Positions 17,600-63,909 of a stretch of DNA of 64,000 nucleotides are shown here, in pieces (the first letter of the stretch is position 1; each line of letters starts with the position of its first letter). Below the pieces are notes generated by a model. That model made no database searches and was not told the DNA's origin. It worked only from the letters and a program-made list of their open reading frames with translations. The translations under genes were made by a program, and so were the position numbers. The stretch comes from Mycteria americana. Taxonomy: Eukaryota > Chordata > Aves > Ciconiiformes > Ciconiidae. The stretch covers positions 84,365,062-84,429,061 of the forward strand of contig NC_134367.1 in NCBI RefSeq assembly GCF_035582795.1, in the 5' to 3' direction.

Positions 17600-18338
17600 A
17601 TTCATGCAACGTTACAGGCTTGGGGAAGAGTGGCTGGAAAGCTGCCTGGCAGAAAAAGACCTGGGGGTGTTGGGCAACAGCCGGCTGAATATGAGCCAGC
17701 AGTGTGCCCAGGTGGCCAAGAAGGCCAATAGCATCCTGGCCCGTATCAAAAATAGCGTGGCCAGCAGGACTAGGGAAGTGATCGTGCCCCTGTACTCAGC
17801 ACTGGTGAGGCCGCACCTCGAATCCTGTGTTCAGTTTTGGGCCCCTCACTACAAGAGGGACATTGAGGGGCTGGAGCGTGTCCAGAGAAGGGCAACGAAG
17901 CTGGTGAAGGGTCTGGAGCACAAGTCTGATGAGGAGCGGCTGAGGGAGCTGGGGTTGTTTAGCCTGGAGAAAAGGAGGCTGAGGGGAGACCTTATCACGC
18001 TCTACAACTACCTGAAAGGAGGGTGTAGAGAGGTGGGGGTCGGTCTCTTCTCCCAGGTAACAAGTGATAGGATGAGAGGAAATGGCCTCAAGTTGCGCCA
18101 GGGGAGGTTTAGACTGGATCTTAGGACATTTTTCTTCACTGAAAGGGTTGTCAAGCATTGGAAGATGCTGCCCAGGGAAGTGGTGGAGTCGCCATCCCTG
18201 GGGGTATTTAAAAGATGTGTAGATGTGGTGCTTAGGGACATGGTGTAGTGGCGGACTTGGCAGCGTTAAGTTAATGGTTAGACATGATGATCTTAAAGGT
18301 CTTTTCCAACCTAAACAATTCTGTGATTCTATGATTCA
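17600..18338 (+). mobile_element. 5'-truncated CR1 LINE copy
   Basis: This is the 3' end of a CR1 non-LTR retrotransposon: the C-terminal part of ORF2 (stop at 18,246-18,248), a short 3' untranslated region with the usual 'gatcttaaaggtcttttccaacc' sequence, and an octamer-type tail (ATTCTGTG, ATTCTATG, ATTCAGTA). There is no poly-A tail, as expected for CR1. It is in the opposite orientation to the long CR1 at 60,071-64,000 and closely related to it: the shared ORF2 tails differ at only scattered residues. The left boundary is approximate because the first bases do not align well with the longer copy. Confidence 0.93.
17604..18248 (+). pseudogene. CR1 ORF2 C-terminal fragment
   Basis: This open frame encodes the portion downstream of the reverse transcriptase catalytic core. 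Recognisable stretches include [63 protein letters not shown] and the terminal LRDMV. In a full element these form the thumb/C-terminal part of the polymerase. No endonuclease and none of the catalytic RT motifs ([17 protein letters not shown]) are present, so the fragment cannot encode an active enzyme. It is still free of stops, which implies a fairly recent insertion. It retains no start codon of its own; nearby ATGs belong to flanking sequence. Confidence 0.9.
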
Positions 18339-42200: not shown

Positions 42201-43089
42201 ATTCCGGGTAAACTGAGCTTGTGCAGTGGTGAAAGGGAACAATTTTTTCTCCTTGGACTTCATTTTTTTCCTATGAGACACATACATACACACAAAAAAA
42301 TTCTTTAACATCAACTGTCTCTACTTGTAGGCGATCAAATTTTGTCTAAGTATCTATTACTGGATTTTAATTTTTTTGTTTGTGAATAAGGTGTTTGTAT
42401 AAGGTACACACCTACGCTCACACACTTACTTAAGCTTAACTGTATGTTTTCCACTTAAGTTAGGCGGTGTGTTTAAAAAAAAAACCACGTTGCTTGATAA
42501 AAGGCCGGGTGCCTATGGTACTGGTAAACAGCATGACGGGGAAAGCGGAAGGGTGCTCCTGCCAGACCGGGCCCACGGTCCCTTCAGGACCGTCACTGCT
42601 AGGGTGGTCACACCCACCCCGCCTCAGCCCTAGTTCGGTCTCGGTGAAGAGTGAACCCCCTCCGCCTCGGGGCTGCGGCCCATCACCTCACCCGCGGGCG
42701 CCCCCTTCTGCCGGGGCAGCCGGAAACCGCCCCACGCAAACCCGCTCCGCCCGCCCACCCGTGCCCCGGCTCCCTCGCACCGCTGCTCCTTCACTCCGTC
42801 CTAACGGACGCCGGACGAGGAGACACGCGACGAACGACGCGGCCCCAGCCTGAGCCGCCCTCCCTCCGGGCGGCAGCCGGCCGGCCCCGCGTCGCACCCC
42901 AGCGCCCCACGGCTCGGCTCCCTCAGCGCCGGGGCCGCGCCCCGAGCACCCGGCCGGGGGCCCGGGACCCGCACCGGCGGTGCGAGAAGAGCACGGGAGC
43001 GGGCACCCAGCGCGCCCCGGCGGCCCCTCGCTTCGCTCCTCGGCTGAGAGGGAGCGGGTGGGCCTGCCCGGGGGAGGCGCGGCCCCCCT

Positions 43090-43120
43090 CCGCCCCGCCC
43101 CGCCCCGCCCCGCCTCGCCT
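43090..43120 (+). promoter_or_regulatory. tandem GC-box (Sp1/KLF-type) array
   Basis: Pentamer CCGCC/CCCGC repeats give several overlapping CCGCCC sites in a 31-bp stretch. They are typical Sp1/KLF binding sites of TATA-less promoters and lie about 370 to 400 bp upstream of the predicted start codon. The same pentamer periodicity makes the tract prone to length change. Confidence 0.75.
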
Positions 43121-43129
43121 CAGGGCCGG

Positions 43130-43144
43130 CCGCCAGGGGGCGAG
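43130..43144 (+). promoter_or_regulatory. CTCF-like motif (plus)
   Basis: CCGCCAGGGGGCGAG is a close match to the CTCF core consensus (CCASYAGRKGGCRS-type). It lies in the CpG island and pairs with an opposite-strand motif 33 bp away. Binding is inferred from motif match only. Confidence 0.7.
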
Positions 43145-43177
43145 CGGCACGGGCCGTTGGCGGCGGCGGGGCCGCGG

Positions 43178-43195
43178 GGCTCCCCCTGCTGGCGG
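43178..43195 (-). promoter_or_regulatory. CTCF-like motif (minus)
   Basis: Read on the minus strand this is CCGCCAGCAGGGGGAGCC, a textbook-like CTCF core. With the plus-strand motif at 43,130-43,144 it forms a facing pair about 300 bp upstream of the start codon. Confidence 0.7.
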
Positions 43196-43491
43196 CCGGC
43201 GGCAACGCGCGGGGTGGGGGGCGCGGAGCGCGCCCTGCCCTGCCCGGCCCGGCCCGGCCCCCGCCGCCGGCGCTCCGCAGGCGGCAGCGCCTCGCAGGCG
43301 GCAGTAGCTGCCCGCCCGCCTGCCTGCTTGCCTCTCCCGCCGGCGGCCAGCCCGGGGACCCTCTGCGGCGGGGGCCGCCGCCTCCCCGCTCCCTCCCTGC
43401 CTTCCTTCCCGCCTCTTACCCGGCCGGTGAGCGCCGCCGGCTCGCCCCGCCGTGAAGTCTGGGCGCCCCCCAGCCATCGCTGCTGCTCCCC

Positions 43492-43544
43492 ATGGGGATC
43501 CGGGAGTTCCCCAACGGCTCCGCGCGGGGCAAAGCCGCCACCCT
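43492..43544 (+). CDS. coding exon 1 of an unidentified vertebrate gene
   Basis: The ATG at 43,492 begins MGIREFPNGSARGKAAT and the exon ends with two bases of a split codon at a consensus donor (CT|GTAAGT). An in-frame TGA lies 39 bp upstream (43,453-43,455), so this is the first possible ATG of the frame; it has G at +4 but C at -3, a moderate initiation context. Splicing to the acceptor at 43,877-43,878 restores the frame as Leu-Gly-Met and joins directly to a conserved-looking exon. That three-way agreement of start, donor and frame is the main evidence. I do not recognise the protein. An alternative is that translation starts at the ATG at 43,883 in the next exon and that this exon is 5' untranslated in some transcripts. 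Confidence 0.7.
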
Positions 43545-43557
43545 GTAAGTACTGCTG

Positions 43558-43600
43558 CGGGGCCGGGCCGGGCCGGGCGGGAGGGCTGGGAGGGACGGGG
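43558..43600 (+). repeat. G-quadruplex-forming run
   Basis: Eight or more runs of three to four G separated by one or two bases (GGGCC repeats, then GGGA, GGGCT, GGGA, GGGAC). It begins 14 bp downstream of the exon-1 splice donor on the non-template strand, a position often associated with R-loops at CpG-island promoters. Confidence 0.8.
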
Positions 43601-43601
43601 A

Positions 43602-43675
43602 CACCCCACCCCACCCCACCCCACCCCACCCTACCCTATCCCATCCCATCTCACCTCACCTCACCTCACCTCAGC
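43602..43675 (+). repeat. graded pentanucleotide array
   Basis: About 15 consecutive 5-bp units change stepwise along the array: CCCCA units, then CCCTA, then TCCCA, then TCTCA, then CCTCA. The complementary strand is G-rich in the first half, so strand G-richness switches from plus (preceding run) to minus here. Confidence 0.85.
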
Positions 43676-43878
43676 CGCCGGCGCCGCCCGCCCCCGGGGG
43701 TCGGTCCGGCGGAGGGCGGCGAGGAAAGTTTGCGGCGCGGCTGCCGCGGGCGCCGGGGCCGCTCACCTGCCGGCGGAGGTCCCGCCGCCCGCCGCCAAGT
43801 TCGCCTCGGGCCGGCGGAGGGCGGCGGCGGCGCTGCCAGCCGCGGCCCCCCCGCTGACGCCCCTCTCCCGGCCCCCAG

Positions 43879-44108
43879 CGGCATGCGGCGCTCCCCCGAT
43901 GTCAGCCCCCGGCGGCTGTCCGACATCAGCCCGCAGCTGCGGCAGCTGAAGTACCTGGTGGTGGACGAGGCCATCAAAGAGGACTTGAAGTGGTCCCGCT
44001 CCGTGGAGGACCTCACCAGCGCTTCTGTGGGGCTCACCTCCATCGAGGAGCGGATCCTCCGCATCACCGGCTACTACGGCTACCAGCCCTGGGCCGCCAG
44101 CTACAAAC
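43879..44108 (+). CDS. coding exon 2 of the same unidentified gene
   Basis: The exon is bounded by a polypyrimidine-CAG acceptor and an AAAC|GTGAGT donor and contributes residues 18 to 94 plus one base of the next codon. It opens with an arginine/serine/proline segment (RRSPDVSPRRLSDISPQ) containing two Ser-Pro sites and an RRLS motif suited to basophilic kinases. It then has an amphipathic, probably helical segment (LRQLKYLVVDEAIKEDLKW) and a compact segment ending ITGYYGYQPWAASYK. There is no signal peptide or membrane span. The sequence has the look of a conserved intracellular protein, but I cannot assign a family with confidence. No further exon is visible in the remaining 20 kb, so the next intron is long or the continuation lies outside the window. 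Confidence 0.8.
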
Positions 44109-46424
44109 GTGAGTCCCCGGCACGGCCGGGCGTGGGGCTGCGAGGAGGGGGACGAGCGCCGGGGCTTTGCGTGGGGGCCACCACGGCACAGAGACGGCTG
44201 ATGAGTGTGGGTTCGAGGGGCTGGTCGCTTTACCCGTGGAAAAAACTCGCCCCATGGAAGCGCTCTCACTCTCTGCAAAGAATTCTGTGCCCGTGTTGCA
44301 TTAGTCCTTAGGCAGTTGTTGGCTCATAGGAACATAGTGCTCAGAATCACGACAGCTAAATTCTGCTAAGAAAATAGGTCAAATATTTGTCTGAATGTTG
44401 CAGACACACTTTGTGATGCTGATTACCGTGTTTGTGGCAGCTGTGTATAAGCCCCAGCACATTCACGCGCATACTGTTTTCACAAACAGTTATCCATGTG
44501 CCTTTCCGTTGTTTTGGGAGTCTGTTAGATTTTCACAGCAGTTGATCTGAATGTTATGCCTTTTCTTATGTCAAGTGGAACTGTTTCTTCCATATGCCTG
44601 CACTTGAAAAAGAAACTTCCTATGATGTCCTTCCAAATGTCAACAATATGAAGAGAGACATAGCTGTATTCCTCCACAGAGGTGATTTACAAAGGAACCG
44701 ATACCTTGAGTGGTTGTAATGTATCGACTAGTATTTTTGCATGTAATGCCTTATTTCTTGTCCATCTTTCATCACCACGATGGCAATTGCATGAAATAAC
44801 AAGTTCTAAGAATAATTTACCAATTAACTGAAGTCATAAAAATATTTTGGTTGTCTTAATGTCGTTTGTAACATCAGAGGGGTTTCTGTTGTAAAAAGGA
44901 TTCTGCTGTACAGAAATCATTGCTTTGCTGGGAAGACTGGCTCTGATAAAGTGATTGTTTTCATGTTGTACTTTCCTAAGTATTAAGTGTAAACGTTCTG
45001 AAATGTTTACTCATGGATTATCTGTTTGGCAGTGTGCTTAATAATGGAAGAAAATGATACAAGAAAGCGTGGTAGACAGTACTAGTTCAGTTTTTCTGTG
45101 AGGAAGAGCCACTCCTGATTGCCTGATAATAGGACTTTACTAATAAATATTCTAAGACTTCTTCTGTAAGAGCCTTTTATTTTTCTTGATTGTGATTATG
45201 ACGGAAATATCTGGTATTTGCTACTTTACTCACAGGGAGTATGGGATTTCTCTAAGAGCAATTCCATTGCCTGGATTGGGACCTTTCTTGAGAGTAAAGC
45301 TTATTCAGGTCAGTTCTCAGGATCAGATCATACGCTGATGCCAGACTGAGTTGGATGTTAGTGCTTCTATCTGACAGAGTGACTAATAGTCCAGCTGAAG
45401 TCGCACTGAGCTGCTATGGCTGAACGTTCTGAAATAATAAAGGACATGCTGGCTCCTCAATTATAACCTCTATGTTGAAATTTATAACTGTGTCTGAAAA
45501 AGTTAATTGCAAGCCTAAGTCTGCTATTCTAGTTATATTTTCTCTCATAACTCGTTCTGAATAACAAAATTACATACTTGAGTTGTAATGGTGGGGGATA
45601 AATATACAAAGTGTCTGAGTTTCATAAATGTATGTCTAAAAATAATAGGTTATGTGAAGTCATTGCCAATTTAAAACCTGAGTTGCTAGAAAGTAGAAGA
45701 ACATGCAGAAGAAAAGACCCATCTCTCTAGCTGGTATAATATGGCATGGCTGAAGCAGAGCTGTGTTGATCTGCATCAGCTGAACAGCTGACTGAATGCA
45801 TGTAAATGGGGTAGATCGTCAAAAGTGGGAAGTCAACTTTGTAACAGCTACTTTGAAACCTCTTTGAATACTCCTTCAAGCTGGGCTTATGCCCAGTTTT
45901 GGAACACGGACTTGCCCTGTGACTTTCCAGTTAAAAGGTTTAATTGGCCCAAGAACGGTGAAAAAATGATTTTTACTAGGTTCAAATTGCACCCTGGGTA
46001 CTTTTTGACATCTTATTGTGCATGCTTATAGACATTCAGGTGCTGTTGGCACTATGAGTATAGTTATGGAGTGCATTAATGATGGACCTGCTTTATGGAA
46101 AATAAGTCCGTAATCTAGTCTGATCTAGATTTGGTCTCTCTCTCTCAGCAGCATTCTTTTTATTGTAACTAAATCACCTGTAGGGCCAGATCTGTTTTTT
46201 TTTTCACTGGAGTGTATTCCTCTGATACGTCATTTAGGCTGTTTATATATATTTATGTATATATGTATAAAATTGTTTGAGACATTCAGAAAGTTTTTGC
46301 TTTTTTTTTTTTAACAAAACTCCATGAGGGAAACTACCAGAGATAATCAGAGATAGTGTTGCCATGACCCCAAAACTTGCTTGGAGACTAGTTTTGTTGG
46401 GGTAAAAACCTGACCATTTAAAAC
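44109..46424 (+). other. start of a long intron
   Basis: After the donor at 44,109 the sequence leaves the CpG island and becomes AT-rich. I see no exon with acceptor, open frame and donor, and no recognisable repeat. Confidence 0.6.
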
Positions 46425-60070: not shown

Positions 60071-60151
60071 GATTCACAGAATTGTATAGGTCGGAAAAGA
60101 CCTTTAAGATCATCGAGTCCAACCATAAACCTAACACTACCAAGACCACCA
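60071..60151 (-). other. CR1 3' untranslated region and tail
   Basis: Read on the minus strand, the ORF2 stop is followed by 'gatgatcttaaaggtcttttccgacc' in two pieces and a short ATTCTGTG-type tail. The 3' end is where the reverse transcriptase starts copying in this family. Confidence 0.85.
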
Positions 60152-63127
60152 CTACACCATGTCCCTAAGCACCTCATCCAAACGTCTTTTGAATACCTCC
60201 AGGGATGGCGACTCAACCACTTCCCTGGGCAGCCTCTTCCAATGCTTGACAACCCTTTCAGTGAAGTGAAATTTCCTAATGTCCAGTCTAAACCTCCCCT
60301 GGTGCAACTTGAGGCCATTTCCTCTCATCCTATCACTTGTTACCTGGGAGAAGAGACCGACCCCCACCTCTCTACAACCTCCTTTCAGGTAGTTGTAGAG
60401 CGTGATAAGGTCTCCCCTCAGCCTCCTTTTCTCCAGGCTAAACAACCTCAGTTCCCTCAGCCACCCCTCATAAGACTTCTGCTCTGGACCCTTCACCAGC
60501 TTCCTTGCCCTTCTCTGGACACGCTCCAGCACCTCAATGTCTCTCTTGTAGTGAGGGGCCCAAAACTGAACACAATATTCGAGGTGCGGCCTCACCAGTG
60601 CTGAGTACAGGGGCACGATCGCTTCCCTAGTCCTGCTGGCCACACTATTTTTGATACGGGCCAGGATGCCATTGGCCTTCTTGGCCACCTGGGCACACTG
60701 CTGGCTCATATTCAGGCGGCTGTCAAACACCACCCCCGGGTCCTTCTCTGCTGGGCAGCTTTCCAGCCACCCTTCCCCAAGCCTGTAGCATTTCATGGGG
60801 TTGCTGTGGCCCAAGTGCAGGACCTTGCACTTGGCCTTGTTGAACCTCATACAGCTGGCCTCAGCCCATCGATCCAGCCTGTCCAGGTCCTTCTGCAGAG
60901 CCTGCCTACCCTCAATCAGATCAACACTCCCACACAACTTGGTGTCATCTGCAGACTTACTGAGGGTGCCCTTGATCCCCTCATCCAGATCATTGATAAC
61001 GATATTAAACAGAACTGGCCCCAACACAGAGCCCTGGGGAACACCACTTGTGACCGGCCGCCAACTGGAGTAAACTCCATTCACCACCACTCTTTGGGCC
61101 CGGCCATCCAGCCAGTTCTTAACCCAGAGAAGAGTACGCCCATCCAAGCCATGAGCAGCCAGTTTCTCCAGGAGAATGCTGTGGGAAACCATGTCAAAGG
61201 CTTTACTGAAGTCTAGGTAGACAACATCCACAGCCTTTCCCTCATCCATTAGGCAGGTCACCTTGTCATAGAAGGAGATCAGGTTGGTCAAGCAGGACCT
61301 GCCTTTCCTGAACCCATGCTCGCTGAGCTTGATCCATTGGTTATCCTCTACGTGCCACGTGATGGCACTCAGGATGATCTGCTCCATCAGCTTCCCCAGT
61401 ACCGAGGTCAGGCTGACAGGCCTGTAGTTCCCCGGGTCCTCCTTCCAGCCCTTCTTGTAGATGGGTGTCACATTTGCTAACCTCCAGTCAGCTGGGACCT
61501 CCCCAGTTAGCCAGGACTGCTGGTAAATGATGGAAAGCGGCTTGGTGAGCACATCTGCCAGTTCCTTCAGTACCCTTGGGTGGATCTCATCAGGCCCCAT
61601 AGACTTGGGTGTGTCTAAGTGATGTAGCAGGTCACTAACCATTTCCCTCTGGATTATGGGGGCTCCATTCTGGTCCCCGTCCCTATCTTCCAACTCCAGG
61701 GGCTGGGTGCCCAGAGAACAATTGGCCCTGCTATTAAAGACTGAGGCAAAGAAGGCATTAAGTACCTCAGCCTTTTCCTCATCCTTGGTCACTGTGTTCC
61801 CTCCCCCGTCTACTAGGGGCTGGAGATTCTCCTTAGCTCTCCTTTTGCTGCTAATGTATTTGAAGAAGTGTTTTTTGTTGTCTTTTACAGCAGCAGCCAG
61901 ACTGAGCTCTAGCTCAGCTTTGGCCCTTCTAATTTTCTCCCTGCACAGCCTTGCTACACCTTTGTAGTCCTCCTGAGTTGCCTGCCCCTTCTTCCAAAGG
62001 TCGTAGACTCTCCTCTTTTTCCTGAGTTCTAGCCAGAGCTCTCTATTCAGCCAGGCTGGTCGTCTTCCCTGCCGGCTCGTCTTTCGGCACCTGGGGACAG
62101 CCCGCTCTTGTGCCTTTAGGACTTCCTCCTTAAAGAATGTCCAGCCTTCCTGTACTCCTTTTCCCATAAGGGCTGCCTCCCAGGGGACGCTGTTGACCAG
62201 TCTCCTAAACGGGCCGAAGCCTGCCCTCTGGAAGTCTAAGGTGGCAGTTCTGCTGAACCCTCTCCTCACTTCTCCATGTATCAAAAACTCTATCATTTCA
62301 TGATCGCTCTGCCCAAGATGGCCTCCAACCATCACATGGCTCACAAGTCCTTCTCTGTTCATGAACAAGAGGTCCAGCGGGGCACCCTCCCTAGTTGGCT
62401 CACTCACCAGCTGTGTCAGGAAGTTATCTGCCACACACTCCAGGAACCTCCTAGACTGTTTCCTCTCTGCTCTATTGTATTTCCAGCAGAAATCCGGCAG
62501 GTTGAAGTCCCCCACAAGAACAAGGGCTAGCGATTGTGAGGCTTCTCCCAGCTGCTTATAGAAGAGTTCGTCAGTCTCCTCATCCTGGTTGGGTGGTCTG
62601 TAACAGACTCCCACCACAATATCTGCCTTGTTGGCCTTCCCCCTGATTCTTACCCATAGACACTCCACCCTATCGTCACCATCATCGAGCTCTAAACTAT
62701 CCAGACACTCCCTGACGTATAGGGCTACCCCATCACCTCTCCTGCCTTGCCTATCCCTCCTGAAGAGTTTATAGCCATCCATCGCCGCACTCCAGTTGTG
62801 CGAGTCATCCCACCACGTTTCCGTGATGGCCACCATATCATAGTTTTCCTGATGTACAATGGCTTCCAGCTCCTCCTGCTTGTTGCCCATGCTGCGTGCA
62901 TTGGTGTAGAGGCACTTCAGCTGGGCTGTCGTCCGCGTCTCCTTCATAGAAGAACACCCCTTGCGTGCTTTGAGGCGTTTCACTGGCGTTTCCCTCTGGG
63001 CTCCTATTGCCTCAGTATCCCCTAGCTCAACTCTGTTTGACTTCAGCTGTGCCCCAGCGTACCCCGCACATCTCAGAGACACAGGCTGAGTGCCCTCACT
63101 GGCACCCGCTCCCTCTAACCGTGGCAC
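60152..63127 (-). CDS. CR1 ORF2: endonuclease-reverse transcriptase polyprotein
   Basis: 991 open codons from the GTG used as start here. Endonuclease (about residues 70-270), AP/exonuclease III-like: N75 in TNARS, E103 in ITETWWD, Y166 in CYRPPN, D197 and N199 in VGDFNLP, and S264-D265-H266 near the end, so all expected catalytic positions are present. Reverse transcriptase (about 510-760): NYRPVSLTS (557-565), HGFRKGRSC (594-602), motif A LDFSKAFD (628-635), motif [12 protein letters not shown] (684-694) and motif C SADD (715-718), where the usual residue before ADD is phenylalanine or tyrosine and here it is serine. The aspartates are kept. The C-terminal part to LRDMV matches the fragment at 17.6 kb. 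No ATG occurs before residue 61, so initiation is unclear; the open frame continues upstream to the end of ORF1 (see the frameshift entry). Confidence 0.93.
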
Positions 63128-63193
63128 ATCGTCCCTCAGCTTCTCTCGGGCAAGCCTGATATTATCCCCCTCCCCCTTCGAGTCTAGTTTAAA
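63128..63193 (-). promoter_or_regulatory. candidate -1 ribosomal frameshift site joining ORF1 to ORF2
   Basis: On the element strand ORF1 ends GCT TTA AAC TAG. The heptamer T TTA AAC (63,193-63,187) has the X XXY YYZ form of a -1 slippery site in the ORF1 reading frame and sits directly before the stop. After a -1 slip the next codons (CTA GAC TCG AAG and so on) are open for 20 codons up to, and then in frame with, the ORF2 GTG at 63,127. A G-rich stretch begins 14 bases after the heptamer, and a small bulged stem (CAGGCTT / AAGCTG) lies about 30 bases downstream. T TTA AAC is an established slippery sequence; its use here is inference. Confidence 0.6.
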
Positions 63194-63909
63194 GCTCTGT
63201 CAATGAGCCCTGCAAGTTCCTGAGCAAAGATTCTCTTTCCCCTTTGAGAAAGATGAATCCCATCAGACGCCAGCAAACCTGGTGCTGTGTAGGCCATCGT
63301 GTTGTCAAAAAAACCAAATCTGTGGTGATGACACCAGCCATGGAGCCATGAGTTGATAGATTGGGTGCCTCTGTTCCTTCTAGTGTCACTGCCCCCAACT
63401 GGAAGGAGAGAGGAGAAAATAACCTGTGCTCCAGCGTCCCTTACTAGCCGTCCCAAGGCCCTGAAGTCTCTTTTGATTGCCCTAGGACTTCGTGTTGCAG
63501 CTTCATCGCCCCCCACATGGAAGAGCAGTAGTGGGTAATAGTCCGAGGGCCGTACCAGGCTAGGGAGTATCCTCATGGCATCCTTCACCCGGGCCCCAGG
63601 GAGGCAGCAGACTTCCCTAAGAGGAGGGTCCGTCCGGCATATCAGACCCTCAGTTCCCCTCAGAAGGGAGTCACCCACCACTGTAACCTGTCTTCTCTTC
63701 CTTGTGGAGGTGGTGTTAATATGAGAAGTATGTTCTTCTGACCTGGGCGACACCTCTGGTGTAGGTAGACTGTCATCCCCATCCTCCACTGACTGGCCTT
63801 CCACCTCCAGGGCCTCATACCTGTTGTACAGAGGCACCTGGGGGGGCGAGGTGGGCAGGGAGGGAGGGAGGGCCTTCGCCTGCCACCACGAGCGTGGACT
63901 TGCCTGCAT
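63184..63909 (-). CDS. CR1 ORF1: SGNH/GDSL-esterase-like protein
   Basis: 241 residues are open here. After a poorly structured N-terminal 70 residues comes an SGNH hydrolase-like domain: block [10 protein letters not shown] (catalytic Ser81), block II glycine in LPGARVKD (G105), block [11 protein letters not shown] (131-138) and block V SDGIHLS with D216 and H219. In canonical SGNH enzymes block III carries a catalytic Asn (GxND); here that position is Asp (GGDE), while Ser, Gly, Asp and His are retained. Esterase domains in CR1 ORF1 are known; the protein is thought to act as the element's RNA/chaperone partner, possibly with lipid or membrane affinity. The ATG at 63,909 directly follows an in-frame TGA (63,912-63,910), so this may be a shortened form of a longer ORF1 whose start was lost or lies out of frame upstream. 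A long C/G run at 63,941-63,961 is a likely frameshift hot spot. Confidence 0.85.

Follow-up and report, generated by a model that had tools for sequence, protein, structure and literature searches.

A slippery heptamer against the ORF1 stop of a young bird CR1 LINE and a predicted -1 frameshift into ORF2

How vertebrate LINEs begin translation of ORF2 is a standing question, and the locus considered here raises it for a bird: it is the ORF1/ORF2 junction of a young CR1 LINE in the stork Mycteria americana, at which the enzyme-encoding frame is open across the end of ORF1 and its first ATG comes late. By the window we mean the whole stretch of DNA analysed, 64,000 nucleotides in length, of which the last 4 kb hold, on the minus strand, a piece of ORF1, ORF2 and the 3' end of the element. 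The 3' part of ORF1 (63184..63909, minus strand), delimited by Pfam and by its translation, encodes an esterase of the GDSL/SGNH type, an assignment that combines a weak Lipase_GDSL_2 match (E 1.8e-6; 29.0 bits, below the cut-off of 32.9) with alignment to 20 other ORF1 proteins; an esterase-type ORF1 is given as typical of a vertebrate CR1 subgroup in the accessible part of the relevant study (PMC4120745). ORF2, taken from stop to stop (60152..63199, minus strand; 1015 aa), lies in the -1 frame relative to ORF1 and carries, according to Pfam, the Exo_endo_phos domain of an APE-type endonuclease and the RVT_1 domain of a reverse transcriptase. The 3' end of the element is marked in the sequence by a single CR1 3' octamer, (A)TTCTGTGA, at 60074..60082 (minus strand); the octamer has been defined previously, and a lone octamer is described in the same available text as the mark of the youngest copies (PMC2612034). 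With the endonuclease and reverse transcriptase, the esterase-type ORF1 and the 3' octamer all present, membership of the CR1 clade is sound. Among the matches listed, the top protein matches to ORF2 come from Mycteria americana, at 92% across residues 1-330.

This copy is not intact, because its ORF1 switches frame and its reverse transcriptase box reads SADD in place of the consensus FADD of eight aligned elements. The switch falls between about 63,881 and 63,849 (minus strand), within a G/C-rich run, and the upstream part of ORF1 runs in a different frame and leaves the window at its edge; that upstream frame corresponds to the N-terminal region of ORF1 in other birds. Elsewhere in the window, a second CR1 piece (17603-18330, plus strand; 728 nt) matches the 3' part of this element at 92% identity; as a second copy of the junction it is ruled out, since the 3' part of CR1 is all that it covers. 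A GC-rich block at about 42650-44310 (the 40-44 kb bin has 53.5% GC) holds a long open plus-strand frame, which has no Pfam match and ends in a non-repetitive stretch (MRRSPDVSPRRLSDISPQLRQLKYLVVDEAIKEDLKW...); the block is perhaps a CpG island with the first exon of a host gene.

On the minus strand the ORF1 frame terminates as CTC ATT GAC AGA GCT TTA AAC TAG, and the heptamer T TTA AAC (63187..63193) directly adjoins the TAG stop (63184..63186). The initial annotation of this stretch had read the junction in this manner, with the ORF2 frame at -1 and open through the heptamer, and both readings hold, the ORF2 frame being open from 63199 to 60152. It had also placed the first in-frame ATG of ORF2 late, about 237 nt past the ORF1 stop; the late position stands (62945..62947, minus strand, at 236 nt), and the residue number of 61 gives way to residue 85 of the stop-to-stop ORF2. 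Two out-of-frame ATGs, at 54 and 112 nt past the stop, come earlier, and the codon 2 nt past the stop is TCG (63179..63181, minus strand). Upstream, the ORF2 frame is shut 9 nt 5' of the heptamer by a TGA (63200..63202, minus strand), which is probably a private change at a CpG, since most other stork reads have Arg at that position. The junction in the window has two features of a -1 cassette: a heptamer of the form X XXY YYZ, placed in the zero frame ahead of the stop, and an ORF2 that is open in the -1 frame across the heptamer and is without a nearby start of its own, although this last feature is lacking in one related read, P0228, and probably in turkey and swan too.

The position of the heptamer is unusual relative to shuffled sequence. 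When the ORF1 codons were shuffled 20,000 times with the stop kept, a slippery-class heptamer stood against the stop in 0.125% of shuffles and within five codons of it in 0.465%, while 19.8% had one anywhere in ORF1. The other slippery-class heptamers in frame number one in ORF1 (TTTTTTT) and one in the ORF2 frame (GGGAAAA), and the TTA codon is rare in this element, serving for 6 of its 138 leucines.

How the ORF1 end has fared in relatives can be followed in proteins. A search found 342 relatives of ORF1, of which 120 were listed, and 20 of the 120 were dropped because the C-terminus was not reached. Among the matches listed, LN precedes the stop in 91 of the 100 homologues that reach the C-terminus, ALN in 81, and LN is missing at nine of these ends; RALN is invariant in 21 chosen ORF1 proteins. 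The LN end is found in 16 of the 18 named bird species among these matches (Grus, Tauraco, Pygoscelis, Pitangus, Morphnus, two species of Anas, Charadrius, Chaetura, Pelecanus, Nipponia, Calypte, Hirundo, Limosa, Lagopus and Rissa), whereas in Apaloderma and Zosterops the C-terminus is reached without it. The 96 listed proteins that share the same end have L in 94 and N in 92, and D at residue -5 in 42; elsewhere in the last helix of ORF1, L is kept at -7 in 92 and at -10 in 95 of the same 96. Since these other positions of the last helix are kept equally well, protein constraint alone could account for LN.

The same nucleotides are also read in the ORF2 frame. Gene models from stork, crane, ibis and godwit cross the heptamer in that frame as FKL, usually followed by x-x-K-G-E-G. 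With K-L required at the site, F stands at the heptamer in 45 of 48 reads among the matches listed (the ORF2 search had 250 further matches beyond these), the exceptions being L in two of the eight godwit reads and C in P0228. Under a looser filter FKL is present in 39 of 46 reads, the rest being P0012, P0027, P0037 (which is not a leader), P0073, P0228, P0242 and P0244; in P0030 and P0266 the leader of ORF2 is present without FKL, a gap that the edges of splice models likely explain. Gene models are picked for open frames, and the ORF2-frame reads carry that bias. Six bird proteins named after host genes (P0098, P0158, P0211, P0244, P0280 and P0290) contain CR1 ORF1 or ORF2 sequence, under names that include mitochondrial enolase superfamily member 1, suppression of tumorigenicity 5, adaptin ear-binding protein, nucleobindin-2 and unspecific monooxygenase; with CR1 sequence inside them, these gene models look chimeric or mislabelled.

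The two frames can be taken together. An ORF1 that ends in ALN-stop and an ORF2 that reads FKL permit two of the 48 codings of ALN, GCTTTAAACTAG and GCTTTAAATTAG, both of which are slippery and both of which use TTA. For crane and godwit, with the two frames taken from the same species and from different copies, the protein reads permit just GCTTTAAA[C/T]TAG; for ibis the ORF1 end belongs to Nipponia and the ORF2 read to Theristicus, and for stork the DNA is that of the window. From these paired frames we infer the heptamer DNA of the other birds, and the heptamer appears to be conserved in relatives beyond what the protein needs. The initial annotation had looked to conservation of the heptamer, of its frame and of the -1 offset for support, and to broken heptamers in intact copies for the contrary. 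At the level of protein the former is borne out, by the LN-stop ends (91 of 100 among the matches listed) and by the decoding of crane and godwit; as to the latter, three of the 48 junction reads are without F at the heptamer. These comparisons cover birds. Three protein scans of viral contigs, and one pattern scan, turned up no relative; the one locus from the genome-contig scan (L001), with 43 residues matched at a contig edge, was set aside; plasmid DNA gave no match; and eight phage records found by tblastn were rejected, the match being limited to ORF2 residues 502-814 at 24-31% identity.

We regard -1 frameshifting at U UUA AAC, yielding an ORF1-ORF2 fusion, as the probable route to ORF2. 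The majority of ribosomes would terminate at the TAG, yielding the ORF1 esterase protein; a smaller share would move back by one base on U UUA AAC, changing UUA-AAC for UUU-AAA, and would then translate the ORF2 frame, first the conserved leader and after it the endonuclease and the reverse transcriptase, the product being a fusion of the kind known as Gag-Pol in retroviruses. The lineages share U UUA AAC, the stop and an ORF2 at -1, but share no start codon, which is what one would expect if ribosomes came to ORF2 by a step back of one base. With mammalian ribosomes, U_UUA_AAC ranks among the heptamers most prone to shifting, according to the part of the study available (PMC5009743). That the slippage takes place, at what rate, and that the fusion serves as a working enzyme are predictions from the arrangement of the sequence.

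No stimulatory structure was found in the 117 nt from the stop onward (fold z -1.23, with 21 of 200 shuffles as good), and a search for an H-type pseudoknot there found none, the shuffles averaging -2.5; the latter is a weak negative because the search was crude, with fixed energies and no bulges. Rfam had no match at the junction, and sliding folds gave nothing firm. A hairpin within ORF1, 5' of the junction (63228..63260, minus strand; z -2.83), is stronger than the downstream fold. The fusion by a -1 shift, which the initial annotation had proposed, is upheld in part: the conserved site and frame speak for it, and the negative searches for a stimulatory RNA speak against.

The stretch between the heptamer and the endonuclease bears on every account of how ORF2 is entered. 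In the window this leader comprises 91 codons (62921..63193, minus strand), as delimited by in-frame conservation with crane and ibis. All three crane reads have 91 codons as well, and align to it without gaps with 40-45 of 91 residues identical; in one crane read, residues 11-91 reach a score of 117, where 500 shuffles gave no more than 14. The ibis leader has 97 codons owing to one six-codon insertion, and is identical at 55 of 91 residues, as against 131 of 227 in the endonuclease region (the crane comparison of the endonuclease spans 60-114 residues), and the godwit leaders are shorter, at 28-50 codons. The leader looks to be under protein constraint. Pfam names no domain in the leader of this copy, and NPGP, the motif of 2A-type recoding, is absent from it.

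Start codons do not follow this conservation. The leader ATG lies at codon 17 in crane, 82 in the window, 93 in ibis and 20-25 in godwit, with none in two of the eight godwit reads. Although conservation of the leader begins at the heptamer, no ATG is common to the stork, crane and ibis leaders. At the codon 2 nt past the stop, 27 of 35 stork reads have S, 7 have L and 1 has A; all three crane reads have S, the single ibis read has L, and of the eight godwit reads seven have V and one has L. A tree of 35 endonuclease regions (from stork, godwit, ibis and the window, crane being left out) has 21 of its 32 inner branches open, the bootstrap not being settled; on it L at this codon is scattered, with 8 changes and 500 of 500 shuffles as low, and S is weakly clustered (21 of 500 shuffles). 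These patterns fit, and do not prove, an ancestral S in stork, with TCG changing to TTG more than once at the CpG.

The main rival to frameshifting is termination-reinitiation, by which ribosomes would stop at the TAG and restart either on a near ATG, 2 nt on, or on the first in-frame ATG, 236 nt on in this copy, the heptamer being a by-product of the ORF1 C-terminus; we consider this unlikely. The initial annotation had counted an ATG just past the stop as evidence against frameshifting, and such an ATG does exist: it stands 2 nt after the ORF1 stop in P0228, and the models P0290 (turkey) and P0271 (swan) start at the matching Met, from which a near ATG is deduced, the models beginning there. 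The stork, crane, ibis and godwit reads lack it, so a mechanism that uses the near ATG cannot serve these birds; where the ATG exists, reinitiation on it is plausible, and in the present copy, with its TCG, it cannot work. The near ATG in P0228, P0271 and P0290 is possibly a reinitiation site that other birds have lost, or an independent gain. For the more distant ATG, a Met within 16 residues of the endonuclease is kept in all 29 measurable stork reads; against it, the downstream ATG varies by lineage, being missing from two of the eight godwit reads and from the last 16 leader residues of all three crane reads, and at 236 nt it is preceded by the two out-of-frame ATGs. The conservation of the leader as protein ahead of the ATG would also be left unexplained. 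A further point in favour is a TGGGA beside the upstream hairpin (63258-63262, minus strand), which could be a reinitiation element: it lies 76 nt upstream of the stop, inside the 40-90 nt region where the TURBS of caliciviruses is located (PMC3542737, in its available part). However, UGGGA is encodable at its place in only 44 of 95 ORF1 tails and is not conserved. A coupled form of reinitiation has been reported for SART1, as far as the text available goes (PMC5972666).

An entry into the ORF2 frame within a few codons of the stop, by non-AUG initiation or otherwise, would give an unfused ORF2 that includes the leader, and we hold it to be quite improbable. It accords with the conservation of the leader from about the heptamer, and the V or L that these birds have 2 nt after the stop would be compatible with GTG in godwit and with TTG or CTG in ibis, the codons being deduced from protein; but the window has TCG there, and S predominates in stork and crane. 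Of the near-cognates, AAG (leader codon 5), ATC (11) and AGG (12) are the closest in this copy; these are weak start codons, and FKL at the heptamer would go unexplained. Reinitiation of the non-AUG kind is known in caliciviruses, according to the same partial source (PMC3542737). Lastly, a pure coincidence, in which ORF1 keeps its C-terminal ALN as protein while the heptamer and the -1 offset have no role, agrees with the general conservation of the last helix among the listed ORF1 ends (L at -7 and at -10, as given above) and is yet very improbable on account of the two-frame result, for each junction readable in two frames uses one of the two codings in 48, slippery and with the rare TTA, and ORF2 would have no conserved start whatever.

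Returning to -1 frameshifting, a broader version of it would hold for bird CR1 in general, with an esterase-leader-endonuclease-reverse transcriptase fusion made by a -1 shift at a U UUA AAC-UAG site that would date from before the split of waterfowl and gamebirds from the remaining birds and would have been retained; the near ATG of some waterfowl and gamebird elements would be a second or older route, lost in others. For this extension we see the chances as evenly balanced. In the open-licence literature we found no report of frameshifting as the route to CR1 ORF2; in the accessible portions of the CR1 ORF1/ORF2 papers checked, mentions of frameshifts refer to decay mutations or to the gag-pol of LTR elements.

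If the frameshift reading is right, the CR1 reverse transcriptase would be joined to the ORF1 protein and produced at a set ratio to it, which would bear on cis preference, on particle assembly and on the relation of Gag-Pol logic to LINEs. It would follow, too, that models of CR1 ORF2 proteins which start at a convenient Met are without the natural N-terminus. The heptamer is a short signal and is directly testable in bird cells.

The junction can be set beside several known systems. The CR1 elements of chicken and turtle, in which the family was reportedly first described (by Haas in 1997 and 2001 and by Kajikawa in 1997, one title of 1997 being said to call the ORFs 'closely spaced'), belong to the same element family as this copy. 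SART1, a non-LTR element of the silkworm, and the caliciviruses resemble it in having two closely set ORFs on one RNA; the UGGGA and hairpin upstream of the CR1 junction recall the TURBS, and some CR1 relatives carry an ATG next to the stop, whereas none is present there in this copy or in the reads from stork, crane, ibis and godwit. The L1 of mammals is likewise a LINE, and its ORF2 start is called unconventional or unknown in the available text of reviews; its ORFs are described there as separated by a 63-nt spacer, in contrast to the CR1 frames, which overlap at the slippery site. Retroviral and LTR Gag-Pol differ in that CR1 is a LINE, that no stimulatory structure was found at its junction, and that the CR1 fusion is a prediction; they share with it a first ORF that has a slippery heptamer at its 3' end, an enzyme ORF at -1 and a stop directly after the heptamer. 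Gag-Pol synthesis by -1 frameshifting is well known from retroviruses, and in Rous sarcoma virus the slippery site abuts the gag stop; it is this virus that comes closest in layout to the CR1 junction.
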